64,000 nt of DNA from Pseudomonas bubulae (GTDB lineage Bacteria > Pseudomonadota > Gammaproteobacteria > Pseudomonadales > Pseudomonadaceae), in NCBI RefSeq assembly GCF_900618535.1, contig NZ_UYJA01000001.1, forward strand, positions 1,178,001 through 1,242,000, written 5' to 3'. Both the position numbers and the translations under genes were made by a program. Numbering within the stretch: the stretch's first letter is position 1; every line of letters starts with the position of its first letter. The notes beneath the pieces were generated by a model that did not search any database, had not been told where the DNA came from, and saw nothing but the letters and a program-made list of their open reading frames with translations. Shown here in pieces: positions 49,409 through 62,654 of the stretch.

Positions 49409-51406
49409 TCAAGATGGCTCAACACGACGCTGCTGATGTATCCAATCTACAATCTCACCTTCGGGTGCATAACCACTGACCGTCTCGCGCAGCAGCTGGC
49501 GAACACGCAAATAGTCATCCTGATCTACCGCTTCAAGCAGTTGCGTCAATCGCTGCTTCAGCTCATCCCAAGGTAACATGTCTTCGTTGGCAGACATGAT
49601 CATGGGGTGTCGGGTCGCGACTACGTTATCGCCAATCAGTAACTCTTCGTAAAGCTTTTCGCCAGGACGCAACCCAGTGAACTCGATCTCAATATCGCCA
49701 TGTAGATTTTTATCCGAACGAACGCTAAAACCAGAGAGATGGATCATTTTCTCGGCGAGCTCGACAATGCGTACCGGCTCACCCATATCAAGGACGAATA
49801 CATCGCCACCCTGCCCCATTGAGCCGGCCTGAATCACCAACTGAGCGGCCTCGGGAATCGTCATGAAGTAGCGGGTAATCTTGGGGTGAGTCACGGTTAG
49901 CGGGCCACCGGTCTTGATCTGCTTGTGAAACAGCGGAATCACCGACCCTGAAGAGCCCAATACATTGCCAAAACGCACCATGGTGAAACGGGTTTTATTT
50001 ACCCGCGACACATTGGCCGAGTCGCCAAACATTACAGGCGCGACTTCCCGACTGAGTGCTTGAAGCGTCATCTCAGCCAGACGCTTGGTGCTGCCCATGA
50101 CATTAGTCGGCCGTACGGCCTTGTCGGTAGAAATAAGAACGAAGTTCGATACTCCCGACTGCAGGGCCGCCTGAGCAGTGTTGAGCGTGCCTATAACGTT
50201 GTTTAACACACCTTCGGCAATATTGTGCTCAACCATTGGCACATGTTTATAAGCCGCAGCGTGATAGACCGTATCGACATGCCAGGTCTTCATCACATCC
50301 AGCAACTTGTGCGGATTGCGCACAGAACCCAGGATCGGCAGCACCTTCACCGAAAGAGACTCCAGATTGACCCGCTGCTCCAACTCGCCAAATATGCTGT
50401 ACAGATTGAATTCGCCGTGTTCGTACAGCAGCAGCGTGGTTGGCTTCAAAGCCAAGATCTGCCGGCACAGTTCCGAACCAATCGAACCGCCAGCGCCTGT
50501 AACCATGACACATTGCCCCTTGATACAACGCTCCTGCAACTCACCTTGCGCGGGAACCGGGTCGCGACCCAGCAAGTCGGCAATATCCACTTCCTGGATA
50601 TCATCAACCTTGACCCGGCCACTGGCCAGATCCATAAACCCGGGCACACTGCGAACGTGGAGAGGAAATCCCTCAAGCAAACCCAAAATCTCGCGGCGCC
50701 GGGCCCGAGACGAAGATGGCACTGCCAACAGCAACTCCTGGGCGCCGGTACGTTCGATCATCTGCTGAATACGTTCGGGTTTGTAAACCTGCAAGCCAGA
50801 GATGATACGATCTGCAATACTTTCGTCATCGTCGATAAACGCTACAGGCCTCATAGCACGGCCCATGCGCAAGGCGGCAACCAGTTGGTTGCCAGCGGCA
50901 CCGGCACCGTAGATGGCCACCCGCGGCAAACCGTCATCGCGATTGGTAAACGGCACGTGTTGAACTGCCGCAAACCAGTCGCCCAGAAAGTATTGACGCA
51001 TGGCAAGGCGCAAACCACCGAGCAGGATTAGGCTTAGCCACCAGTAGTTGAAGATTATCGAGCGCGGCACAGTATTTTCAGGGGTGCTATACCAATACAT
51101 CACCACTGCCAAGATCAATGAAGAAAGACTGACAGCCTTGATAATGGCGATCAGAGCATCATTGCCGAAATAGCGCATTACGGCACGGTACATGCCGAAA
51201 CGGATAAACAGCGGGATGGCAATCAAAGGGGCGCAGATAAACAGCCACAGATGTAGCTTGACCGGATTGATCATATCGTCAATCCCTAGGCGCACGACAA
51301 ATGCAAGCCATAGGGCGAACCAGACGAGAACCACGTCTGTCACCACTTGAATAACTCGTTTATCCCGTCTCGACAGGTTGAGTAAGTACGCTCGAATTTT
51401 ATCCAT
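49409..51406 (-). CDS. wbpM: WbpM-type membrane UDP-sugar 4,6-dehydratase
   Basis: Starting at ATG 51406 (MDKIRAYLLNLSRRDKRVIQ) the protein has 665 residues, the length I recall for WbpM; a GTG five codons earlier with GGAG at good spacing is an alternative. Four N-terminal membrane helices lead to a first Rossmann-like domain (AIYGAGAAGNQLVAALRMG) and the catalytic SDR domain (VMVTGAGGSIGSELCRQIL, ISTDKAVRPTNVMGSTKRLAE). The usual Tyr-x3-Lys is replaced by Met-x3-Lys (MGSTK), as known in WbpM/PglF/FlaA1. It makes UDP-4-keto-6-deoxy-GlcNAc. Last gene of the operon. Confidence 0.96.
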   Translation of the reverse strand: MDKIRAYLLNLSRRDKRVIQVVTDVVLVWFALWLAFVVRLGIDDMINPVKLHLWLFICAPLIAIPLFIRFGMYRAVMRYFGNDALIAIIKAVSLSSLILAVVMYWYSTPENTVPRSIIFNYWWLSLILLGGLRLAMRQYFLGDWFAAVQHVPFTNRDDGLPRVAIYGAGAAGNQLVAALRMGRAMRPVAFIDDDESIADRIISGLQVYKPERIQQMIERTGAQELLLAVPSSSRARRREILGLLEGFPLHVRSVPGFMDLASGRVKVDDIQEVDIADLLGRDPVPAQGELQERCIKGQCVMVTGAGGSIGSELCRQILALKPTTLLLYEHGEFNLYSIFGELEQRVNLESLSVKVLPILGSVRNPHKLLDVMKTWHVDTVYHAAAYKHVPMVEHNIAEGVLNNVIGTLNTAQAALQSGVSNFVLISTDKAVRPTNVMGSTKRLAEMTLQALSREVAPVMFGDSANVSRVNKTRFTMVRFGNVLGSSGSVIPLFHKQIKTGGPLTVTHPKITRYFMTIPEAAQLVIQAGSMGQGGDVFVLDMGEPVRIVELAEKMIHLSGFSVRSDKNLHGDIEIEFTGLRPGEKLYEELLIGDNVVATRHPMIMSANEDMLPWDELKQRLTQLLEAVDQDDYLRVRQLLRETVSGYAPEGEIVDWIHQQRRVEPS

Positions 51407-51492
51407 ATATCCTTTGAACACCTACGCTACTCCAAAAAACCATCAACAAGCTGACACTCTATACACCACTCTATATATCCCTAAGTTGAGCG

Positions 51493-52671
51493 TCAGACCA
51501 GTGAAGCTTCCTGCACGACATCACTCAATACCTTGCAGGTCAATTCTATTTCTTGCTGTGTCAGTGTGGGATGAACCAGAAACATCATGCTCGTCTCGCC
51601 CAACTCTTTCGCATGCGCTAATCGTAACGAAGGACGCCAGCCAGTACCTTCAAATGCCTTTTCTAGATACACCTCAGAACATGAACCGGAAAAAGCAGGT
51701 ACACCGCGCGCGACCATCTCGTTGAGAATGCGATCACGGGACCAACTAGCCTTAAGGGCTTGCGGGCGTACAAATACATAGCACTTGTAGGCCGCGTGCA
51801 CATCAGCGACCGGCAACACGGGTACACGAAGTGCAGGCAACTGCCGGGCCTGGGCCCAAATACGTGAAGCATTTTTCAGCCGAGCGGCATGCCACTCTTG
51901 CATCCGGCGCAACTGGATGCGTCCGATAACAGCCTGAACCTCAAGCATCCGCCAGTTCGTGCCGAAGCTTTCGTGCAGCCAGCGGAAACCTGGTGCATGC
52001 TCACGCTCGTAAACCGCTTCCCAGCTCTTGCCATGATCCTTGTAAGCCCACATGTCGGCCCACAGCTGACGATCATTGGTGGTGACCATGCCGCCTTCGC
52101 CGCCCGTGGTCATGATCTTGTCCTGGCAGAACGACCAGGCGGCGATATGACCGATGGAGCCGACAGGACGGCCTTTGTAATGAGCTCCATGAGCTTGGGC
52201 GCAATCTTCGATCACCTTCAGGTCATGCTCAGCCGCCAAATCCATGATCGGATCCATGTCACATGGCCATCCAGCCAGATGAACACAAATGAGGGCTTTG
52301 GTACGGGGCGTCAACACTGCACTAATGGTTTCAGCAGTGAAGTTCTGCGAGTCAAGGTCGACATCTGCAAATACCGGCACAGCCCCAGCATTAACAATGC
52401 TTGAAACCGAAGCCAGGAAGGTACGAGAAGTAACAACAACTTCATCACCCGGACCGATATCAAGTGCCTTCAACGCCACATCCAGTGCTACCGTACCATT
52501 GGCTAGGGCCACGGCATATTCCGTGCCTGACCAGGCGGCAAATTCTTTTTCAAAAGAGCGGGTTTCTTGCCCAGTCCAATAGTTGACCTTGTTCGACAAA
52601 ATTACCGCACGGACAGCGTCGGCTTCTTCTTCCGTGAAGGAGGGCCAAGGAGAAAATGGTGTATTCAGCAC
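51493..52671 (-). CDS. DegT/DnrJ/EryC1/StrS-family sugar aminotransferase (PglE/PglC-like)
   Basis: The 392 residues form a PLP sugar aminotransferase. Visible features are YWTGQETRSFEKEFA, the PLP-contact ANGTVALDVAL, the VIEDCAQAHGA aspartate (D156) and the Schiff-base lysine K185 in AAWSFCQDKIMTTGGEGG. These enzymes aminate 4-keto sugars with glutamate. Placed between wbpM and a phosphoglycosyltransferase-acetyltransferase fusion, it most likely converts UDP-4-keto-6-deoxy-GlcNAc to the 4-amino sugar. Perosamine- or Fuc4N-type activity cannot be excluded from sequence alone. wbpM follows 86 nt later. Confidence 0.9.
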   Translation of the reverse strand: MLNTPFSPWPSFTEEEADAVRAVILSNKVNYWTGQETRSFEKEFAAWSGTEYAVALANGTVALDVALKALDIGPGDEVVVTSRTFLASVSSIVNAGAVPVFADVDLDSQNFTAETISAVLTPRTKALICVHLAGWPCDMDPIMDLAAEHDLKVIEDCAQAHGAHYKGRPVGSIGHIAAWSFCQDKIMTTGGEGGMVTTNDRQLWADMWAYKDHGKSWEAVYEREHAPGFRWLHESFGTNWRMLEVQAVIGRIQLRRMQEWHAARLKNASRIWAQARQLPALRVPVLPVADVHAAYKCYVFVRPQALKASWSRDRILNEMVARGVPAFSGSCSEVYLEKAFEGTGWRPSLRLAHAKELGETSMMFLVHPTLTQQEIELTCKVLSDVVQEASLV

Positions 52672-52762: not shown

Positions 52763-53983
52763 TTAATGCTGTAAAGCTTTCGCTGGAACACCCACAACAG
52801 TCATATTGTCGACAACATCATTGACCACGGCCGCACCTGCCCCAACCTTGACCCGGGATCCAATGCTGACCGACTGCTTAACGGATGCACCTATTCCAAT
52901 CCAGCTCAATTGACCAACATGGACTGTACCCGCCAACCTTGCGCCTGGGCTGATGTGGACACATTCTTGCAAAATACAATCGTGGTCAATACTGCACCCG
53001 GTATTAAGAATGCTTCCATCACCTACGTTTGCGCCTGGATTTACCACTACCCCTGCAAATGCCACGACGCCTTTACCCATAGTGGCGTGTCGACTGATTG
53101 TCGCTGCCGGGTGAATAAGTGTGATTAGCATTGCTCCGGCATTATCGAGCTCTTTCATTTTCATGCAGCGAATATCATTATTGCCAATCGCAACTATGAC
53201 ACCGTCGAACTCCTGAAGGCGCTCCAATAATGCATGTGTATCACCCACCACAGGCCAATGGCCCACAAACTGGATAGATGGCCAGTTATCATCAAATACT
53301 TCAACAATGTCCCAGTCACAGCATTCAGCGGTATCTGCTACAACTTTGGCATGCCCACCTGCCCCCACAATGGCGAGTTTTTTTTCAGCTGGTGCAGTCC
53401 CTGTAAACTTTGATATCGTGACCTCGCCGGCAGCGGAGATACCCTCGCGGACAAGCACTTTCTTAAGAGTAAGCGCGATAATTTTGAGGTCGAGCCAAAA
53501 TGATTGGTTTTCGACATACCAAATATCGTATTGGAATTTCTGCTCCCAGCTGATTGCATTACGGCCATTAACTTGTGCCCAACCTGTAATCCCGGGTTTT
53601 ACATCATGTCGGCGCGCCTGTTCAACGCTATACAGTGGCAAATACTCCATTAACAACGGCCTGGGGCCAACCAGACTCATATCGCCCTTCAAGACACTCC
53701 AAAGTCCAGGCAACTCATCCAAGCTGCTTGAGCGTAAAAAAGCTCCGAAAGAGGTCATGCGTTCCGAATCAGGCAAAGGATTACCATGTGCATCAACCGC
53801 ATCTTTCATGGTTCTAAATTTCAGCATTTCAAAAGGCACGCCGTGCAAACCGGGCCTTATCTGCCTGAACAATATTGGACTTCCCAATTTAAGTCGCACA
53901 GCTAAACCTAAACAAGCGATGACTGGTGAAAGAACAAGCAGACCAAAAAAAGATGCTGTTATATCGAATAGACGCTTAATCAA
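52763..53983 (-). CDS. fused phosphoglycosyltransferase-acetyltransferase (Neisseria PglB-like)
   Basis: I place the start at TTG 53983, reading MIKRLFDITASFFGLLVLSP, because GGAG lies 7 nt upstream and it overlaps the previous stop by 8 nt; the open frame further up is glycosyltransferase sequence in another frame. The 406 residues join a PglC-type phosphoglycosyltransferase (1-200; re-entrant helix, LKFRTM, catalytic SSLDELPGLW, SLVGPRP, PGITGWAQVNGRN) to a PglD-type N-acetyltransferase (about 217-406; AIVGAGGHAKVV, left-handed beta helix, CSIDHDCILQECVHISPGAR). It should acetylate a UDP-4-amino sugar and transfer it to undecaprenyl phosphate. Confidence 0.9.
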   Translation of the reverse strand: MIKRLFDITASFFGLLVLSPVIACLGLAVRLKLGSPILFRQIRPGLHGVPFEMLKFRTMKDAVDAHGNPLPDSERMTSFGAFLRSSSLDELPGLWSVLKGDMSLVGPRPLLMEYLPLYSVEQARRHDVKPGITGWAQVNGRNAISWEQKFQYDIWYVENQSFWLDLKIIALTLKKVLVREGISAAGEVTISKFTGTAPAEKKLAIVGAGGHAKVVADTAECCDWDIVEVFDDNWPSIQFVGHWPVVGDTHALLERLQEFDGVIVAIGNNDIRCMKMKELDNAGAMLITLIHPAATISRHATMGKGVVAFAGVVVNPGANVGDGSILNTGCSIDHDCILQECVHISPGARLAGTVHVGQLSWIGIGASVKQSVSIGSRVKVGAGAAVVNDVVDNMTVVGVPAKALQH

Positions 53984-55127
53984 TGTCAAGCTCCTGCAAG
54001 TAAAAATTCTGCATCCGTTCCCAATGAGCAGTACGATCAAAACGCTCAACAATTCTAGCGCGGGCGGAAGTTCCCATTTCAGTCATACGGTCATGGGGTG
54101 TTTCAACCGCCTGCATCATTGCACTCGTCAAGGACGTGACATCACGGGGCTGGGCCAACCAACCATTCATACCTGACTCAATAATTTCGTTACAACCACT
54201 GATATCTGTTACAACAGCAGGTATGCCCATGGCACATGCCTGCAACACGACATTGGGAAAGCCCTCCCGATAGCTTGACAAGACAAGGGCGTCGGACGCT
54301 GCCAGGGCATCACGTATATCTTCCTGAAACCCCAACGTATGAATCCTTGGATGCTGCTTCAACAATGCGAATGTTTCTGCATCTATCGGCGCTTCAGAGT
54401 CCAAGCCTCCGACCACAATCAAATGGGTGTGATCAGGAAGTCTCAAAAAAGCCTGCCCCAACTCCTTCAGACCCTTGTCTCTGTTCAAGCGTCCGATAAA
54501 GCAAAAAACGAACTCATCGTCCATTATTCCCAGGCTTTCTTTAAGCGCTTTAGAGTTAGTTATAACGAACTGGTTATCAGGTCGAAAAAAATCAAGATCC
54601 ACACCCGCAATATTCCCATGCCCAATGACAGACATCTGCTTTTTAGTCACGCGATAAGCCAGCAAATCTTTTTTCACACCCAATCCTTCAGGGACGACTG
54701 TGGTGGCACAGACACAAATCAATCGATCTACGTTGATAAGAAGTGTTTTCTTGAAACCGGTCTGGGTGGGGAATATAAGTCCGGTAAACGTATGAATCCT
54801 GACAGGAACCCGGCACAAAAAAGCCGCAATCATCGTCACCAGGCCCGCCTTGGGTGTATACGATTGAACCACCGAAGGTTTTAATTTACGAAGCAACCTG
54901 CACATCGAGAGAATTGAAATAACGTCAGCGAATGGACTGATGCCCCGCTTCATTGCTACAGGATGAACGGGGACGGCTTCCCGAACAGCAATTCTATCTA
55001 CCGGTCCATCAGCAGAACAAGCCAGATGTACCTTGAACGAATGGTTCAGAAACTTTGGCTGATGAGCCAATATGGTCATCAGTGTTTCCGGAACGGTTGT
55101 GACAATTAATAAAGTTGCTTCTTTCAT
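53976..55127 (-). CDS. glycosyltransferase family 4 protein (PglA-like position)
   Basis: The 383 residues have a GT-B fold. N-terminal blocks include VHPVAMKRGISPFADVISI and SYTPKAGLVTMIAAFLCRVP; the donor domain has FIGRLNRDKGLKEL and SSYREGFPNVVLQACAMGIP with the E-x7-E of GT4 retaining enzymes. Encoded directly before the initiating fusion enzyme, it probably adds the second sugar; donor and linkage cannot be told. The C-terminal codons contain the ribosome site and start of the next gene. Confidence 0.88.
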   Translation of the reverse strand: MKEATLLIVTTVPETLMTILAHQPKFLNHSFKVHLACSADGPVDRIAVREAVPVHPVAMKRGISPFADVISILSMCRLLRKLKPSVVQSYTPKAGLVTMIAAFLCRVPVRIHTFTGLIFPTQTGFKKTLLINVDRLICVCATTVVPEGLGVKKDLLAYRVTKKQMSVIGHGNIAGVDLDFFRPDNQFVITNSKALKESLGIMDDEFVFCFIGRLNRDKGLKELGQAFLRLPDHTHLIVVGGLDSEAPIDAETFALLKQHPRIHTLGFQEDIRDALAASDALVLSSYREGFPNVVLQACAMGIPAVVTDISGCNEIIESGMNGWLAQPRDVTSLTSAMMQAVETPHDRMTEMGTSARARIVERFDRTAHWERMQNFYLQELDID

Positions 55128-55162: not shown

Positions 55163-56251
55163 TCAAGCTGTATAAAGACGAGTCCAGATGCTGACGATCT
55201 CATCAATAGAGTAGTTTTCAACGATCCGCAATCTTGCGGCGCGCGACATGTTATTTTTTTCACTGGCCGTCTTAGCCAGAGCAATGCTCATGGCCTGAGC
55301 AAGCCCCTTAGGATCCTTGGCTGGAACTAAGTATCCGCAACCACCCACGACTTCTTTAACGCCGCCGCAATCGGTTGCTACCACGACTTTCTCGGACGCC
55401 ATGGCTTCAGCTACCACCAAACCAAAGCCCTCCCAGGCCGAGGAAAGCACGTATAAATCCGCTGCATTATATATATCATTGACGTCTGATCTGACGCCTA
55501 AAAATCTCACCAGCGGGGTAAGTTTCAAGGTAGCTACGAGATCTTTCAGCTCCTGTCTCAGCGGACCATCACCTACAATCCATAGCTTCACCGTTTGTTT
55601 GTTATCGGACAGTACTTTAAATGCATGTATTAGATTTTTATAGTCTTTGGCATCAACCAGTCGACCCACCGCTACAAGCAATTCGTCCTGATCAACAAGA
55701 CCTTCCGAACTCCTGATGGCTGCCCGCGTAACCGGGTCAGGCTTGAAGCGTTGGGTATCAATACCATTCGGAATGGCCAGCATGGTACCTGGCGGACAGG
55801 CTTTTTTTTGTTCGAATATATGCACAGCTTCAACCGTTACATTGGTTGTCACATCAGCTAAAGAATGCGTGAGCCGATAAGCGAGCATTCTTGCCTTACC
55901 GCCTTCATTGGTATTGTGTGCTGTATTGATCAGTCTTTTGATGGTACAAATCGGCCTGATCATTCGAGAGAAGAGGTTCGCATGCACCATGTGCGCATGA
56001 ACGACATCAGGATCAAAATCCTTGATAATACTCCTCAACTTAATAAAGCCTTTGAGAAATCCAGGTACTGTTTTCTCTAGATTCAACCCCAAAAGCTCAA
56101 CACATGGACTTTTGGGTCGCAACAGAGCAGGCCCGGTTAGATAGCAGATTTTCACCTCATGCCCGATCTCGTGAAAACGATCGGCAAGGTCCAGAACCTG
56201 TCTTTCCGCACCACCCACACCAAGACCTGTGATGATATATAAAATTTTCAT
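55163..56251 (-). CDS. glycosyltransferase family 4 protein
   Basis: The 362 residues start at ATG 56251 (MKILYIITGLGVGGAERQVL), the usual GT4 N-terminus with its GGAER loop. HAHMVHANLFSRM, AVGRLVDAKDYKNLIHAF and SSAWEGFGLVVAEAMASEK (E-x7-E) complete the fold. It begins one base after the stop of the upstream GT2 gene. It should add one sugar of the O-unit; specificity unknown. Confidence 0.9.
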   Translation of the reverse strand: MKILYIITGLGVGGAERQVLDLADRFHEIGHEVKICYLTGPALLRPKSPCVELLGLNLEKTVPGFLKGFIKLRSIIKDFDPDVVHAHMVHANLFSRMIRPICTIKRLINTAHNTNEGGKARMLAYRLTHSLADVTTNVTVEAVHIFEQKKACPPGTMLAIPNGIDTQRFKPDPVTRAAIRSSEGLVDQDELLVAVGRLVDAKDYKNLIHAFKVLSDNKQTVKLWIVGDGPLRQELKDLVATLKLTPLVRFLGVRSDVNDIYNAADLYVLSSAWEGFGLVVAEAMASEKVVVATDCGGVKEVVGGCGYLVPAKDPKGLAQAMSIALAKTASEKNNMSRAARLRIVENYSIDEIVSIWTRLYTA

Positions 56252-56252
56252 A

Positions 56253-57047
56253 CTAAATTTTTCGCCTGTTGCACACACGAAACACGACACACTGAAAATA
56301 TCGCACTATGCACTTTAACTTCCTGACAGCACCTGCCTCGCGCAACACCTGTTCTTTATAAAACAAACCAAAACCCTGGGGATTTCGTTTCAGATTATTG
56401 AAAAAATTAGCTGAATACCCATCCGGTAAATATTCGCACAAATAGATATATTTGCTGTAAAAGTACAGGATCTCACCTTCGTCGGATATTCTGTTCCAGA
56501 TCAACAATTCAGGGACAAATATCTCGTCTTTAAAACGAGGAAAAGGATGTTTAAGCAATGCACTTTTCTTGAATACATAAGCCAGATCCCCTAGAAAGTG
56601 ATTGGCTGCTTCAGTAGGTGTCATCTTCGAAGCGACAGTATCGTCGTCTGAGAATACGGCCCCGATAATATTACCGGCCAGATCGGCCCTCCTATAACAA
56701 AGCCCGGCAATACCATGGGTGTCCAGGTTCTGCAAGTCTTCGTTAATGACTTCAATAGCATTCGATGTAAGCGCATCGTCACTATCGACCAACAACACCC
56801 AATCCCCTGTTCCGGCTGGAACCCCGGCGTTAATCGCTATATGTTTTCCGGCGTTTTCTTGCTGCAAAATCTTGATAGAGAAACTGGAATTCTGCTGAAA
56901 CTCCTCCAGCAATGAAAGCGTTTCGTCTTGGCTTCCATCATCAACTACGACCCACTCGAAGGACTTATTAGTCTGCTTCTCCAGGCTTTCATACAAGCGG
57001 CCCAAGGTGTAAGCACGGTTATAAGTTGCTGTCAGTACAGTAATCAT
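56253..57047 (-). CDS. glycosyltransferase family 2 protein
   Basis: The 264 residues have the GT-A fold: ITVLTATYNRAYTLGRLYES, WVVVDDGSQDET, AINAGVPAGTGDWVLLVDSDDAL with the metal-binding D-x-D. The C-terminal part (FVPELLIWNRISDEGEILYF) is of a type common in O-antigen clusters. It lies 13 nt after the flippase gene and one base before the next glycosyltransferase. Confidence 0.9.
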   Translation of the reverse strand: MITVLTATYNRAYTLGRLYESLEKQTNKSFEWVVVDDGSQDETLSLLEEFQQNSSFSIKILQQENAGKHIAINAGVPAGTGDWVLLVDSDDALTSNAIEVINEDLQNLDTHGIAGLCYRRADLAGNIIGAVFSDDDTVASKMTPTEAANHFLGDLAYVFKKSALLKHPFPRFKDEIFVPELLIWNRISDEGEILYFYSKYIYLCEYLPDGYSANFFNNLKRNPQGFGLFYKEQVLREAGAVRKLKCIVRYFQCVVFRVCNRRKI

Positions 57048-57060
57048 AAATACCGCTCAT

Positions 57061-58278
57061 CTATTTTATTTTGTACGCTAACAAAATCAGCGAGATGGAG
57101 AATAATACCTCAGCCAAAACCAGGCCATACACGATACCAGCCAAGTCATACCAGAGAGAAAACAGAGCTGCCAAACACAAGGAAAGCAACGAAAAAAACA
57201 TCAAACACATACTGAGGATTTTATCTTTCCCTAAAGGCATGAATATCGTCAGACCTATGGCCTGATTCATCATGCGAAAGGGTATGATCATGACAAATAC
57301 TTGCAGGATAGATTTAGCTTCATCAAAGCCAGGACCTAACATCAGATTAATTAAAAAATCGCCCAACGCATAAATTATTGTAGCCCCAGCAACGCCGGCA
57401 GCAAACAGGAATGCTACGATAAGACTCGACAGCTTCAAGTTGATACTGGTTGTTTTCAAAAGCCGCCTGCTTAAGTAGGGATACAACCCGATCAACACTG
57501 GCCCTACCAGACCAACAGAAGCTTTTATAATTTTTTCAGCAGGCACAAACTTTGCAACCGATGCCTGCCCACACATAACCCCGACAAGCGCGGGCCCTGC
57601 ACTCAACATAATATTATTGGAGCTTTTGTAGATAAAACCATGAAAGCCCGACTTTATTTGCTCGACCCCACTTTTGAAATCAATATTGAAACCACCCACT
57701 ATTTTGTACGCAAGATAGAGTCCAACCAAAGTATTAAACAGAGAAAAAGAGGACATGATCATTAAAGCAAAACTGGCATTGGCAGAGACATTCAGCAGCA
57801 GGTATAAAACTAACAAACCGGCAAATCTCAACACCAATTCGAAGGTCACAACAAACGTAAGCTTCTCCAGCCCCTGAAATAGCCAAATATTACTGAAGCT
57901 AAATGCCAGAAAATAAAGATACCCCCACAGGATTAATTGCAAATCGAGATCAAAATCCAGAATTGACAGCACGCCCATGGACACCACAATCATGCCGCTC
58001 GAGAGTAATAACTTGGCTGAGTTGACACCATTATAAATCGCAGAAAGCAGCGACTTATTCTCTGGCCCGCACACTGCCACCTGCCTCGCCCCACTCAAGG
58101 AAAAACCATACTCGACGATGAGGGAGCACAACAAAGCAGTTGTTTGAATGATCAGCACCTGACCATATTGATCGACACCCAGTGCTTTGGCCAGAATCGG
58201 AATTTCTAGAATGGGTATTAAATAGCTAACCAGCTGAGCTACCAACAACAAGCTGACATTTTTAAATTGCAACCTCAT
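57061..58278 (-). CDS. wzx: O-antigen flippase, Wzx-like (polysaccharide transporter family)
   Basis: The 405 residues from ATG 58278 (MRLQFKNVSLLLVAQLVSYL) have about 12 membrane helices in the MOP/PST pattern, with YLIPILEIPILAKALGVDQYG at the N-terminus. GGGGGT lies about 9 nt upstream; an earlier ATG at 58287 sits too close to it. It overlaps the polymerase gene by 17 nt. It should move lipid-linked O-units across the inner membrane. Confidence 0.88.
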   Translation of the reverse strand: MRLQFKNVSLLLVAQLVSYLIPILEIPILAKALGVDQYGQVLIIQTTALLCSLIVEYGFSLSGARQVAVCGPENKSLLSAIYNGVNSAKLLLSSGMIVVSMGVLSILDFDLDLQLILWGYLYFLAFSFSNIWLFQGLEKLTFVVTFELVLRFAGLLVLYLLLNVSANASFALMIMSSFSLFNTLVGLYLAYKIVGGFNIDFKSGVEQIKSGFHGFIYKSSNNIMLSAGPALVGVMCGQASVAKFVPAEKIIKASVGLVGPVLIGLYPYLSRRLLKTTSINLKLSSLIVAFLFAAGVAGATIIYALGDFLINLMLGPGFDEAKSILQVFVMIIPFRMMNQAIGLTIFMPLGKDKILSMCLMFFSLLSLCLAALFSLWYDLAGIVYGLVLAEVLFSISLILLAYKIK

Positions 58279-59524
58279 TTTCGTCATCACCCCCTGTGAC
58301 CTGGACATGTTCGCTCATGATGAACTGACGCGACAATACCGATAGGGCGGATGTCATCAAGATCCATATTCCCCACTCAGATAGTTCTGTACTGAAAGGA
58401 TGGAGCATCAACAATAGGGCAAAACCTAACGAACCGCCTAATGCAGCAATGGCATAAATAAAAATATATTTTGCTTTGTGTTCATGCATTGCGTAGCGAC
58501 ACAATCGTATTGCAAATATCAGCAAGGGTGAGAATATGAGAATCAGAAGGCCGATAAAACCCAAAATACCCAGATCGCCACCGGATGAAATAAAAGCGTT
58601 GTGCACAACCATCGGACTACCATCCACTTCAGACGTCGTACTGCCGAAACCGCAACCAAATGGCATGCACGTTTCAAAAGACCTCAGACCATCAGCTAGC
58701 ATTCGAGCCCTTACAGGATCCCCTGCTGCCAATCTGTCCACGACTAGAGGATTCTGATTGAAATTAAGAATATCGTAGCCGGTGCTGTACAGCATCAACA
58801 CGGCAGTGAATGAAATGATTGAAATAAAAAACAGGAGTAATGTCAGCTTTGGTCTGACATGCATGCTGAGCAGCAGTATCAAGAGTATCACAAGCAAAAA
58901 TACAATAAATCCTGTACGACTGGAATCCATAACAAGTATGTACGCGCCGGCGATCATGACCAGTAGGCTAGTTACTTTACTTCTGCCATCAAAGAGCGTA
59001 CCCACAATTACAAAACCTGCGAAGAATGCACACGTTTTCCACAACACGCCCGGATAGGCAAATAAACTTCCTTGCCGACCATCGCCCAACTCAATATATA
59101 AACCTGTCAGGTAATATTTCGCCATGCAAAAAACCAGGAAACCTGTCAATATCGATCGCGAGGCGATCGAATGATAGTCACCTTGTTCCAAAAACTGAGA
59201 GTGCGCATAAACACAAACAAAGACAACACCAATACACATCATCTTCAACCCTTGGTAAAAGGTTTGAATTTCAGCATTGGCCAATGCTGACAGTACAAAG
59301 GCGCTAAACAACACGAAAAACCCGAGAATATATACAGCCAACTCGGGACTTACCTTGAAAGACAATCGTTCAGGGGCTGAGATTAACCCGACCACTACGA
59401 TCAAGCCCCATAAAGCCCAATATCCTGCGGGACTGATCAAACTTCTAACATCACCCAATACGACCAATAGGCAAGCACTCAACACGATACCGTAAGACGC
59501 TGCATTTTTTTTCACGTTTTCCAC
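58262..59524 (-). CDS. wzy: O-antigen polymerase, Wzy-like (O-ligase/polymerase superfamily)
   Basis: The 420-residue protein has about 11 membrane helices and one large periplasmic loop (about 250-320). It starts with GTG 59524 (MENVKKNAASYGIVLSACLL) after GGCAGG. Near the loop's end VVHNAFISSGGDLGILGFIG fits the HN...E/D-G-LG motif of the Wzy_C domain. WaaL ligases share the domain; position inside the O-unit cluster beside the flippase favours the polymerase. Confidence 0.82.
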   Translation of the reverse strand: MENVKKNAASYGIVLSACLLVVLGDVRSLISPAGYWALWGLIVVVGLISAPERLSFKVSPELAVYILGFFVLFSAFVLSALANAEIQTFYQGLKMMCIGVVFVCVYAHSQFLEQGDYHSIASRSILTGFLVFCMAKYYLTGLYIELGDGRQGSLFAYPGVLWKTCAFFAGFVIVGTLFDGRSKVTSLLVMIAGAYILVMDSSRTGFIVFLLVILLILLLSMHVRPKLTLLLFFISIISFTAVLMLYSTGYDILNFNQNPLVVDRLAAGDPVRARMLADGLRSFETCMPFGCGFGSTTSEVDGSPMVVHNAFISSGGDLGILGFIGLLILIFSPLLIFAIRLCRYAMHEHKAKYIFIYAIAALGGSLGFALLLMLHPFSTELSEWGIWILMTSALSVLSRQFIMSEHVQVTGGDDENEVAI

Positions 59525-59648: not shown

Positions 59649-60197
59649 TCACATCACGAACAATGCAGCAGCCTGATCTTTATCGTTGATAAGATACCCT
59701 CCAACGTCGGGCCAATGAATATTCAACGCTTCGTCATTCCAGCGAATGCTGCGCTCAGATTCCTTATTATAGAAATTGGTCGTTTTATAACTAAATATCG
59801 TGTTTTCTTCCAGCGCAAGGAAGCCATGGGCAAATCCAGCAGGAATCCACAGCATTTTTTTATTCTCTGTATTCAATTCCAGTCCAAACCATTCGCCATA
59901 CGACGGAGACCCCTGACGAATATCCACAGCGACATCGAAAGCTGCGCCATGGTTCACACAGACCAGTTTGCCTTGCGCGAAAGGCTCTAGTTGATAATGC
60001 AACCCTCGCAGAACACCCTTTTTGGAACAGGATTGATTATCCTGAACGAAAGGATCAGGAACGGGCAGCCCCAAGTGACGCAATCCTTCCTCGAATTTTT
60101 GAAGATTGAAACTTTCCATGAACCAGCCGCGTTCATCTTCGTAAACGTCCGGCTCGATGATCACCACGCCAGGCAGTGTTGATGGCATAAATTTCAT
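59649..60197 (-). CDS. rmlC: dTDP-4-dehydrorhamnose 3,5-epimerase
   Basis: This 182-residue cupin has [10 protein letters not shown], the catalytic histidine in [18 protein letters not shown] and [11 protein letters not shown], all standard for RmlC. It epimerises dTDP-4-keto-6-deoxyglucose at C3 and C5. It overlaps rmlA by 4 nt (ATGA). A 124-nt gap follows before the polymerase gene. rmlB and rmlD are not in the window. Confidence 0.96.
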
Positions 60198-61087
60198 GCA
60201 CCGTTCCCCTCAGATAACAGCTTGCCCAGGTATTGCCCGTAACCGGTTTTTTTAAATCTTTCGGCCTGCTCAGCCAACACCTGAGAGGTTATCCAGCCAT
60301 TGTTGAATGCAATCTCTTCCAGGCAAGCAACCTTCAATCCCTGGCGCTTCTCAATGGTATGGACAAAATGACTCGCCTCCAGCAGTGATTCATGGGTCCC
60401 AGTGTCAAGCCAGGCAAACCCGCGCCCCAATATTTCAACGCTCAGTTCTTTCTGTTCTAGATATGCCTGGTTGACATCGGTAATCTCAAGCTCGCCCCTT
60501 GCCGAAGGTTTGATCTTCTTCGCTATCTCAACAATTTGGTTGTCGTAGAAATACAGCCCGGTCACAGCATAGTTCGATTTGGGTTTAGGCGGTTTTTCCT
60601 CGATGCTAAGCGCCTGGCCAGAGCTGTCAAACTCCACGACGCCAAAACGCTCGGGGTCACTGACGTGATAACCAAAAACTGTAGCACCTACCGTCTTTGA
60701 CATTGCTGAGCGCAAGTTGTCCGAGAAGTGCTGTCCATAGAAAATATTGTCACCCAGAATCAGGCAGACCGGATCTTGACCAATAAAGGCCTCACCAATA
60801 ATAAAGGCTTGTGCCAGTCCGTCGGGACTAGGTTGTTCGGCATAACTGAGCTCAACACCATAATGACTGCCATTACCTAGCAATTTTTCAAAATTTGGCA
60901 GATCTTCCGGAGTAGAAATAATCAGAATTTCCTGTATCCCCGCCAGCATCAAAACAGACAGCGGGTAAAAGATCATCGGCTTGTCGTAGATCGGCAGCAT
61001 CTGTTTAGAGACTCCCAGCGTGAGCGGATGCAGGCGCGTACCTGAGCCACCAGCAAGAATGATGCCTTTACGCTTGATCGAGATCAT
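60194..61087 (-). CDS. rmlA: glucose-1-phosphate thymidylyltransferase
   Basis: The 297 residues show the nucleotidyltransferase signature [46 protein letters not shown] and the allosteric C-terminal part. It makes dTDP-glucose from glucose 1-phosphate and dTTP. It is the first structural gene after the ops element, whose last base is 82 nt before the ATG, with AAGGAAG upstream of the start. Confidence 0.97.
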
Positions 61088-61169
61088 GTTTCAAGCACTT
61101 CCTTAATTATTCGAATGCACCACTCGCAGCGCTGGCCGGTGATGAGATAAATTTGAGTTTTAAAAAAGT

Positions 61170-61180
61170 ACGCTACCGCC
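61170..61180 (-). promoter_or_regulatory. ops element (JUMPstart core) before rmlA
   Basis: The minus strand reads CCTGGGGCGGTAGCGTACTT, containing the exact 11-base ops core GGCGGTAGCGT (61180-61170), followed by a T-run. RNA polymerase paused on ops exposes this DNA to RfaH, which then travels with it and prevents Rho-dependent stops. The rfaH gene ends 73 nt upstream. Confidence 0.9.
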
Positions 61181-61252
61181 CCAGGATTCTTCGTCGATTT
61201 CCTGAGAACGGTTGTAAGACTATTGATAGCCCCGGCTTCAGTCTGCGTTTAT

Positions 61253-61780
61253 TCAACGATTGGCGATACTCGCCAAAGGCAAGCTGATCTGTTGCTGACG
61301 ATTCATCAAGTTAATAAGCAGGATGACCCGCTCTTCGCCGTCCATTGTCATGAAAATGGACTCAATACCTGCGAAACCTTGATCAAGGATGGTGACTTTA
61401 TCGCCAGGGTTAAATTTGGCGATAATATGAGTACTCGCGCGACTCTGCAGCTGCATAATCAGCTCGTGACCGACTGCCAGCGGCCGACCACCAAAGGCCA
61501 CCACGCGAGCTACGCCACGGGTGGAACGTAGAGGAGCCCAGTTGGCACCTTCAGGCATATGTATAAACAAGTAGCCAGGAAACAGCGATTCCTCAGCGTA
61601 GTGCATCTGGCCACGCAGGGTTCGCTCACGCCTGCATGTGGGCCGTGAACACCCATAACCCTGGCGTATAAGGTTTTCTTCTGCACGCTCGTCCTGTCTG
61701 GGCTTGCATTGCACCAGATACCACTCGCCGGTTGTGGCCACTGTCGATTCCTGAGCTGCTGCGGTGCTGATCATGGGCAT
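61253..61780 (-). CDS. rfaH: RfaH, operon-specific transcription antiterminator
   Basis: The 175-residue reading from ATG 61780 (MPMISTAAAQESTVATTGEW) has an NGN domain (WYLVQCKPRQDERAEENLIR, ESLFPGYLFIHM, RSTRGVARVVAFGG) and a C-terminal KOW part (FNPGDKVTILDQGFAGIESI). Other starts (ATG 61774, TTG 61837) are possible; none has a strong ribosome site. The LVQCKPRQDERA block is RfaH-specific rather than NusG. Its target ops lies directly downstream, so it probably controls the O-antigen operon. Confidence 0.93.
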   Translation of the reverse strand: MPMISTAAAQESTVATTGEWYLVQCKPRQDERAEENLIRQGYGCSRPTCRRERTLRGQMHYAEESLFPGYLFIHMPEGANWAPLRSTRGVARVVAFGGRPLAVGHELIMQLQSRASTHIIAKFNPGDKVTILDQGFAGIESIFMTMDGEERVILLINLMNRQQQISLPLASIANR

Positions 61781-61851
61781 GGATAATTCATTTAGTAAGT
61801 TCTTCCGTGTTTTACCATCGTACAGTGCATGTGCCAATAACAGGGTGGCCT

Positions 61852-62559
61852 TCAGCTCGCCGGGATGAATGCCTCAACGAATCTGTTTTGAGTTTGATAC
61901 AGGTTTGACAATTTCACTGCCACCACCCGTTCCGCCACTATTTCGCCATACCCCAAGCATATTTCTCGGCCCAATGCTTCATACCTGAAACAAAGCCGAG
62001 CAAACCATGCTGATCGGCATGGGAAAATTGCCACCCAACGTGCTGATGCCTGCGCGAATGATACAGCGCTTGCCCTCCAATTCAACATAACCGCTTGGGT
62101 GGCCGTACTTTTGTATCTGGTCTGCGTCTGCAGAGTTTCATTCTTGACTTATGCAGAACCACTGATGAGCAGGCATCTCGGTGATGTGCTGCTTCAGCCG
62201 TCTCAGACAAGGATCAATGTGTGCCGACTCTCTGCTCAATTCCAGGCGCAATTAGCCTTAAAGCACCAACGCCAATAATTTCGGCGAGGGAGCATCACTG
62301 CACACAATCGGATCCTTGAGACCTGCCGCCAAAAAATTATGGAATGCATCCGACATGATCAGCTTGGACATGGGTAAGCATCAGCACTTTGATACCGGCA
62401 AGTACAAAGTTTTCGCGGATGCAATGCACCGATGACACCGCTGACAGTGCGCTCACTGCCCTGAAACAGACCGCCGTCGATTAACAGATTACTCAGGGTG
62501 CCCATCTGCAACTGATGGTGCGAACCCATGACGCCGTTGCCGGCGCCATGTTGAAACAT
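61852..62559 (-). pseudogene. decayed MBL-fold/beta-CASP RNA exonuclease gene
   Basis: Fragments of one family appear in order in shifting frames. At the start is MFQHGAGNGVMGSHHQLQMG with LLIDGGLFQGSER (ATG 62559). Then comes THVQADHVGCIP, a damaged THxHxDH metal motif ending in a stop, then KDPIVCSDAPSPKLLALVL and a stop. At the end come GHPSGYVELEGKRCIIRAGI, then FSHADQHGLLGFVSGMKHW in another frame, then EICLGYGEIVAERVVAVKL in a third. The order fits a metallo-beta-lactamase RNA-processing exonuclease (about 450 residues) that lost much of its beta-CASP middle. It lies between wzz and rfaH. Confidence 0.82.
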
Positions 62560-62654
62560 GAGCTGATAAGGTACAGGTTGCTCTCAGTACAGCTCCATGA
62601 AGAAGCAATTAATCCATCAACTAGTGGCTAGTAATGTGTCAGCCCAGCCCCCTA

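Follow-up and report, generated by a model that had tools for sequence, protein, structure and literature searches.

An rfaH gene and an ops element at the head of an O-antigen operon

Does an rfaH gene that lies next to an ops-like site at the head of an O-antigen operon act with that site, or are the two neighbors by coincidence? We addressed this question in the window, a 64,000-nucleotide stretch of the Pseudomonas bubulae genome, whose relevant features are the following.

61253-61774, minus strand: rfaH, encoding an RfaH-type NusG paralog (TIGR01955, 158.7 bits; cut-off 144.5)
61088-61252, minus strand: rfaH-rmlA intergenic leader, 165 nt
61168-61208, minus strand: composite ops/JUMPstart-like element, 41 nt (covariance model R1, 57.1 bits)
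61200-61204, minus strand: hairpin 5' arm, CAGGA
61182-61186, minus strand: hairpin 3' arm, TCCTG
61170-61180, minus strand: ops core GGCGGTAGCGT, exact 11-nt match
60194-61087, minus strand: rmlA, first gene after ops (TIGR01207, 509.8 bits)
59649-60197, minus strand: rmlC (TIGR01221, 224.9 bits)
58262-59524, minus strand: open reading frame (PF04932, 28.9 bits, slightly under the cut-off of 31.7)
57061-58308, minus strand: Wzx-like flippase (PF01943, 66.6 bits)
56253-57047, 55163-56290 and 53976-55127, minus strand: three glycosyltransferase genes
52763-54052, minus strand: initiating sugar transferase fused to a PglD-like acetyltransferase (PF02397, PF17836)
51493-52671, minus strand: DegT-family aminotransferase (PF01041)
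49409-51421, minus strand: wbpM-like dehydratase, last of the run (PF02719, 413.5 bits)

The O-antigen genes are closely spaced on the minus strand, from rmlA and rmlC to the wbpM-like gene at 49409, and form a run of ~12 kb. The open reading frame that precedes them (61253-61837, minus) is RfaH by TIGR01955, with 158.7 bits against a curated cut-off of 144.5, and GGCGGTAGCGT is exact at 61180-61170 (minus) within the flanks given for it in the initial annotation, whose placing of an RfaH gene and then ops at the head of the operon is confirmed by these two results. The rfaH product matches E. coli RfaH in the PDB with E = 5e-27, and the NusG model gives it 38.3 bits, under a cut-off of 135.7. 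It also stays below the cut-offs of the UpxY model NF033644 (54.9 bits; cut-off 100) and the LoaP model (31.4 bits; cut-off 125). A separate NusG-like gene lies at C2:3975-4388 (53 bits), the housekeeping NusG being distinct from RfaH, and each of the two is encoded once in the P. bubulae genome.

The likely start of rfaH is ATG 61774 or ATG 61780. The upstream part of the listed frame (61775-61837) is probably out of register because small insertions here set the window and a second genome of the species (G344) apart from three relatives; the DNA of relatives suggests an N-terminal extension in the rfaH frame over this same stretch. Further upstream, a broken coding sequence (61840-62620, minus) separates rfaH from a Wzz-like gene, and parts of it are present in relatives; we take it to resemble a decayed metallo-beta-lactamase-type gene.

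The residues expected of an ops-reading RfaH are largely in place. In the E. coli protein Lys-10 and Arg-73 contact ops, and Glu-48, Ile-93, and Phe-130 serve autoinhibition (PMC7593976; papers given by PMC number are cited here and below from parts of their text). All five residues (K10, R73, E48, I93, F130) are conserved in the RfaH encoded in the window when it is aligned to the E. coli protein, as are R16, T72, and R138. The same alignment shows E. coli T66, T68, N70, and H20 replaced by W, P, R, and N, so that the DNA contacts may differ from those of E. coli RfaH.

From the rfaH stop there are 72 nt to the first ops base and only 48 nt to the hairpin. The 5-bp hairpin CAGGA...TCCTG adjoins the core, its 3' arm ending directly 5' of GGGCGGTAGCGT, and the JUMPstart stem directly 5' of GGGCGGUAGCGU is thereby present with five pairs. 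The leader before this polysaccharide operon matches 11 of the 12 bases of the core GGCGGTAGCGTG; base 12 is A here, whereas both E. coli K-12 sites examined have G. The 57.1 bits that R1 gives to the element have to be seen against the presence of this site and related sites in the training set of that model. The Rfam JUMPstart model RF01707 gives the element 17.8 bits (E = 0.64), short of the gathering threshold of 35, which was also reached in none of 11 other Pseudomonas loci with the 14-mer described below; the E. coli K-12 control sites score 60.0 and 55.2 bits. Scans of the leader (61088-61252) returned no terminator-like and no sigma70-like site, with hits overall at chance level.

Recurrence of the motif beyond chance

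A chance 11-mer beside a coincidental gene pair would also produce the arrangement in the window. This reading draws on the bare core, which has four copies in the 5.03-Mb genome against seven for its reversed control, and which we dropped as evidence since its count is not above that control. In this genome-wide count of ops sites, which had been proposed as a check, CCTGG precedes the core in two of the four copies, at this locus and at C1:873897. What exceeds chance is the composite element in its position, since hairpin, core, and place shortly after rfaH recur together, in P. psychrophila, P. paraversuta, and Pseudomonas sp. NKUCC02_KPG as well as genus-wide.

We searched 398 Pseudomonas genomes for the 14-mer TGGGGCGGTAGCGT and found 91 sites in 81 genomes, against 20 for the reversed control. 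An RfaH over the cut-off is encoded in 133 of the 398. Both are present in 65 genomes, RfaH only in 68, the 14-mer only in 16, and neither in 249 (odds ratio 14.9, P = 1.3e-22, a value that is overstated because it ignores kinship and related genomes are not independent). When set against 150 rfaH matches (145 of them over the cut-off), 67 of the 91 sites lie within 20 kb of rfaH, 48 downstream on the same strand and 19 upstream in divergent orientation, with none in the other two orientations within that distance. Of the remaining 24 sites, 11 lie far from rfaH in genomes that carry it, and 13 belong to genomes with no rfaH match. Twenty of these were inspected: three have the TCCTG arm and five pairs (G000, G208, G256), one has five pairs with a different arm, and 16 have fewer pairs. 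That these 16 14-mers, far from or without rfaH, lack the 5-bp stem is a second point for the chance reading. Of the 17 unlinked sites without the TCCTG arm, 14 sit inside open frames of at least 150 codons. Against the chance reading, position, orientation, hairpin, and spacing are conserved across species and genera, by which the chance reading is refuted in practice; we give it virtually no credence.

Conservation of the probable hairpin before ops

To the hairpin we applied 72 contexts (55 of them distinct) from rfaH loci plus three distant sites, in which the core ends in GT, or carries an A in one of the two final positions, and is preceded by TGG or TGT. A stem with a loop of 11-14 nt forms five pairs in 64 of the 72 contexts, four in six, and two in two (L081, L121). 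When the contexts are aligned without gaps, 89.1% of the stem cells are paired, a level reached by 0 of 500 shuffles, and slid versions of the stem pair 20-67%. Two-sided changes occur in 13 stem cells, a number matched by 1 of 500 shuffles. The two measures based on the number of pairs or of pair types do not rise above shuffled data, in which 489 and 472 of 500 attain the observed values. Such a stem is present in 48 of the 55 distinct contexts, compared with 9% of shuffled flanks. Stems ending 1 to 3 nt further, inside the G run, are equally common (45-48 of 55), and the exact end of the stem is therefore not fixed. RNAalifold predicts a similar stem with one pair omitted. Five loci (L077, L082, L084, L085, L183) have the 5' arm GAGGA, which leaves one G-G mismatch in the stem.

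Folding energy was dropped as hairpin evidence because one of five folded leaders beats its shuffles: the leader of the window does so (z -2.2), and two other Pseudomonas and two E. coli leaders are not better than shuffles (z 0.1 to 1.1). Overall the comparisons among contexts support, without proving, a canonical hairpin before ops.

Linkage of the element to rfaH in the genus and family

The initial annotation had treated rfaH beside its target as exceptional. It is instead a common layout, as seen from the 67 of 91 14-mer sites within 20 kb of rfaH and from other genera. R1, the covariance model, was built from the 55 distinct elements, and linkage among its matches is partly built in because these training sites lie mostly beside rfaH; the scarcity of strong matches in genomes without rfaH is less built in by training. 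At E<=0.01 R1 finds matches in 74 of the 398 Pseudomonas genomes. The best match is at least 35 bits in 66 of these, all 66 have an rfaH match, and in 62 that match is over the cut-off, whereas the eight genomes with weaker R1 matches include five with rfaH and three with none. Numerous ops copies unlinked to rfaH, the outcome that would have refuted the initial annotation, are thus not found when the complete element is considered (rfaH in 66 of 66 genomes), and are seen in part for the bare 14-mer, 16 of whose 81 genomes are without an RfaH over the cut-off.

In the downstream layout, 38 of 50 sites lie 50-143 nt past the rfaH stop, and terminator-like sites between rfaH and the element were found in none of these 38 close loci. 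Within the sequence examined, an open reading frame follows 49 of the 50 downstream sites; among the 48 scanned, the first encodes an NTP_transferase in 11, a UDP-glucose/GDP-mannose dehydrogenase in seven, a UDP-GlcNAc 2-epimerase in five, and a sugar transferase in five. For the 19 divergent sites (13 with an open reading frame in the sequence examined, 12 scanned) the families are Polysacc_synt in five, epimerase in two, and others. Several loci carry more than one copy: three ops 14-mers lie within ~8.3 kb after one rfaH on G222:C12 (L087), two lie within ~1.5 kb after one rfaH on G187:C27 (L089), and in one genome (G381; L080, L083) two rfaH genes are separated by 37 kb, and a canonical ops lies 98 nt downstream of either one.

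Across 198 genomes of the family, the genus Pseudomonas included, R1 matches occur in 82 genomes and 13 of 19 genera. From 63 listed genomes whose element reaches 35 bits, we took 40 and compared them with 40 genomes without a match: RfaH is over the cut-off in 40 of 40 of the former and 22 of 40 of the latter, and in 30 of the 40 element-bearing genomes the element lies <1 kb downstream of rfaH. In these 40 genomes, 61 elements reach 35 bits: 31 lie <1 kb downstream of rfaH, 12 in other layouts within 35 kb, and 18 farther away or on another contig. Six of the 12 are upstream on the same strand, three downstream on the opposite strand, two divergent, and one farther downstream. With nine of the 12 near, non-adjacent elements in other orientations, the orientation rule is looser outside the genus. 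The pairing of rfaH with ops is common both within Pseudomonas and elsewhere in the family.

Distant elements and probable action in cis and in trans

A second element with a hairpin is present in the same genome at C1:873872-873912, between wzc and ugd and 365 kb from rfaH. The genes that follow it (ugd, a hexapeptide-transferase, a glycosyltransferase, wzy, wza, and yjbF) belong to a capsule/EPS cluster. The other genome of the species, G344, has a weaker relative (31.8 bits) ~359 kb from rfaH. Rfam matches (at L187 3308-3372 and 3979-4140 and at L092 374-437) comprise a C4 antisense RNA with its target and a TwoAYGGAY RNA near the distant capsule/EPS cluster, and TwoAYGGAY RNA in one related locus as well.

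Ten sites away from rfaH were examined. Nine are R1 matches, including one at a distance of 29 kb, and the tenth is a leader-variant site of the kind described below. The first open reading frame of at least 140 codons belongs to a polysaccharide family in nine of the ten, one of them (L274) with a match below the Pfam cut-off; at the remaining site (L278) it belongs to a beta-barrel porin family. The existence of the second element and of distant polysaccharide-linked sites means that the module is not closed. In the idea of a self-contained cassette, the linkage of rfaH to its own operon stands and the self-containment does not, given the second element 365 kb away before ugd. Judged from the placing of these sites, RfaH probably acts both in cis and in trans.

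A probable module for the linked operon, and its alternatives

The protein family, its key residues, the element, its linkage to rfaH, and the second site can be read directly from the DNA. We consider it likely, with a probability of roughly 85%, that together they represent an antitermination module in which RfaH loads at ops and serves the linked O-antigen/polysaccharide operon. Pausing, loading, the fold switch, and antitermination would then proceed by analogy with E. coli RfaH, and we adopt that mechanism in view of the shared family, core, and key residues. In E. coli, ops makes polymerase pause, a small hairpin arises in the non-template strand, and autoinhibited RfaH binds, after which the KOW domain is released, NusG is excluded, and a ribosome is recruited (PMC7593976, PMC7819879, PMC11001881). 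In the window, rfaH would be transcribed, probably on the operon's own transcript, and a short hairpin would form in the leader RNA immediately ahead of the pause at ops. RfaH, restrained by its KOW domain, would read the ops bases on the displaced DNA strand and remain on polymerase, where it would exclude NusG, hence Rho, and recruit ribosomes, so that transcription and translation would continue through the whole ~12-kb rmlA-wbpM run. This RfaH would also load at the second element in the capsule/EPS cluster. The RNA hairpin lies ~12 nt before ops base 11, and the his pause hairpin stands at a similar distance from its pause. A composite pause of hairpin and ops would be a guess made by analogy, and the ops pause is reported to differ from the his pause (PMC11001881).

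A different mechanism has been described for RfaHs adjacent to operons. In a 2026 preprint (PMC13015549) such proteins are reported in a non-switching (monomorphic) form, and applied to the window this would mean an RfaH that loads in cis as it is made, independently of ops, with ops a relic or mainly a pause site. The AlphaFold model of RfaH did not show an alpha-helical KOW domain, as such a form would have it, but at a confidence (pLDDT <50 over most of residues 119-173) too low to decide for or against a fold switch, so that the model does not demonstrate autoinhibition either. This explanation appears unlikely to us in view of the ops core and hairpin kept beside rfaH genus-wide, the conserved ops-contact and autoinhibition residues, and the distant elements in the same genome and in others.

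A further question is whether rfaH and the operon share a transcript, as the initial annotation suggested with a perhaps. With no terminator-like site found between rfaH and ops, co-transcription of rfaH and rmlA is plausible on the basis of spacing, and the suggestion stands at that strength. Alternatively, rfaH and the operon could be separate units, with the operon promoter in the 3' end of rfaH and the adjacency due to co-inheritance only. The divergent layout (19 loci), which cannot share a transcript from rfaH into the element, speaks for separate units, whereas the 48 nt from the rfaH stop to the hairpin, the 0 of 38 close loci with terminator-like sites, and a scan that gave no promoter-like match between rfaH and ops (a weak scan, with hits at chance level) speak against them. 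We regard separate units as possible but somewhat doubtful.

Other RfaH clades and variant ops sites

In a tree of 148 Pseudomonas RfaHs, from which two short rows were omitted, the layouts cluster, with 7 changes as opposed to 56.6 with shuffled labels. In 81 tree rows there is no canonical element in the flanks examined (1.5 kb only for 29 rows); these are a leader-variant clade of 35, a clade B of 43, and three others. An earlier variant search at loci without the canonical element, allowing mismatches and demanding a perfect stem, had returned scattered matches only.

In the leader-variant clade, CGGTAGCTTTG lies <400 nt upstream of rfaH in 35 of 35. In the 398 genomes ACCNTGCGGTAGCTTTG has 31 sites, compared with 11 for its reversed control, and 30 of the 31 are 229-354 nt upstream of an rfaH match on the same strand; as ACCNTGCGGTAGCTTTG was drawn from those same sites, the informative part is its near absence elsewhere. 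The lone site of this class that is not upstream of rfaH (G269:C80:26483-26499, L280) is followed by a glycosyltransferase as first open reading frame. The leader variant is the top 10-mer in noncoding sequence for its clade (26 of 31 loci). No hairpin is claimed at the leader variant, where a perfect stem is no commoner than in shuffled sequence (2 of 32 versus 8.6%) and RNAalifold gave none. The genes after rfaH at the locus L146 encode a porin, Wza-like and Wzc-like proteins, and a sugar transferase. Leader-variant and canonical RfaHs show no clean difference at the listed ops-contact positions, with only R23 showing a tendency (25 of 35 have Q), and we claim no residue specificity code between the clades for that reason; several differences occur elsewhere, including positions 80-86 and 92-100.

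Clade B was read with longer flanks at 19 loci. Ops-like sites are present in 17 of the 18 with >6 kb upstream, 6.4-8.2 kb upstream of rfaH on the same strand, and 13 of the 17 loci have two, ~100 nt apart; the remaining locus (L256) has no ops-like site in >6 kb upstream. Thirteen loci were read at 6 kb, with a site at -2.5 kb in L107 and none in sense in the other 12. The rest of the clade consists of L101, a near copy unread for the motif, and 10 loci with 1.5-kb flanks. At L258 rfaH lies inside the operon that the ops-like sites head. The candidate ops-like 10-mers of clade B occur in 13 of 32 loci, compared with 17 for the top word, and were chosen through prior knowledge of the motif. 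For the first clade B site type, a stem of at least 5 bp precedes the core in 11 of 14, as against 18% of shuffles.

Two RfaHs are encoded in 12 genomes, and in eight the pair is one canonical and one leader-variant protein. Three RfaHs outside the two large clades (L125 and L115 in G204; L102 in G299) were assigned no ops class, and G299 holds a weak element 29 kb from rfaH.

Three ops classes can be proposed: canonical sites just downstream of or divergent from rfaH, ACCNTGCGGTAGCTTTG in the leader of rfaH itself, and ops-like sites heading an operon in which rfaH is one of the genes. Tentatively, and a little short of even odds, we suggest that several Pseudomonadaceae RfaH clades may each be tied in cis to an ops class of their own, that co-resident paralogs may be insulated by matching loading sites, and that the leader variant may provide positive feedback on rfaH. 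If this is true, linkage in cis goes together with sequence-specific loading, contrary to the idea that RfaH came to read ops in order to act in trans.

Comparison with known systems

RfaH, ops, the JUMPstart stem-loop, NusG paralogs encoded at their targets, rfaH near polysaccharide genes, and the P. stutzeri EPS rfaH were already known. Among titles and abstract openings, a coverage largely outside subscription journals, we found none on ops beside rfaH in Pseudomonas; nor were the two variant ops classes found in the same scope. The JUMPstart stem-loop, Rfam RF01707, goes back to a report by Weinberg et al. 2010 (PMC2864571).

The closest relative is E. coli RfaH with the ops/JUMPstart leaders of rfb and waaQ, which agrees with the window in protein family, exact 11-nt core, and polysaccharide target. 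The E. coli JUMPstart hairpin likewise ends directly before GGGCGGTAGCGT, with the same geometry and other bases (arms CTGG/CCAG before rfb and CAGG/CCTG before waaQ in K-12). Unlike in E. coli, the Pseudomonas rfaH adjoins its target, the stem is CAGGA with a loop of 12-13 nt in most, base 12 is A, and RF01707 scores the site at 17.8 bits rather than the 60.0 and 55.2 of K-12.

UpxY of Bacteroides, TaA of Myxococcus, and LoaP of Bacillus are likewise encoded in or beside their target operons (PMC7593976; PMC7819879), but the Pseudomonas protein is RfaH by model and comes with ops. The recruitment of operon-encoded NusG paralogs has been called unknown (PMC7593976). In the RfaH clusters CL2-CL8 of Wang et al. 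2020 (PMC7593976), rfaH is similarly near envelope or polysaccharide genes; the account, in the main text parts drawn on here, gives no ops beside it. The exopolysaccharide locus for EPS273-M of P. stutzeri 273 (PMC5532660) includes an RfaH-domain gene, as here, and the part of that paper cited mentions no ops. The cis-linked monomorphic RfaH homologs of the preprint PMC13015549 are also beside LPS or secretion operons; they are ops-independent, whereas ops and the reading residues are conserved here.

Published accounts contrast standalone, ops-reading RfaH acting in trans with operon-encoded NusG paralogs (PMC7593976, PMC6391919, PMC7819879). The linked Pseudomonas RfaHs cut across this contrast, as they keep ops and the reading residues and have distant targets. 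The repetition of the rfaH-ops pairing in several layouts makes it testable how such regulators come to recognize their targets: natural pairs of factor and loading site, some of them in one cell, offer a way to study the evolution of loading specificity, and the contexts form a large natural alignment for probing the role of the hairpin before ops.
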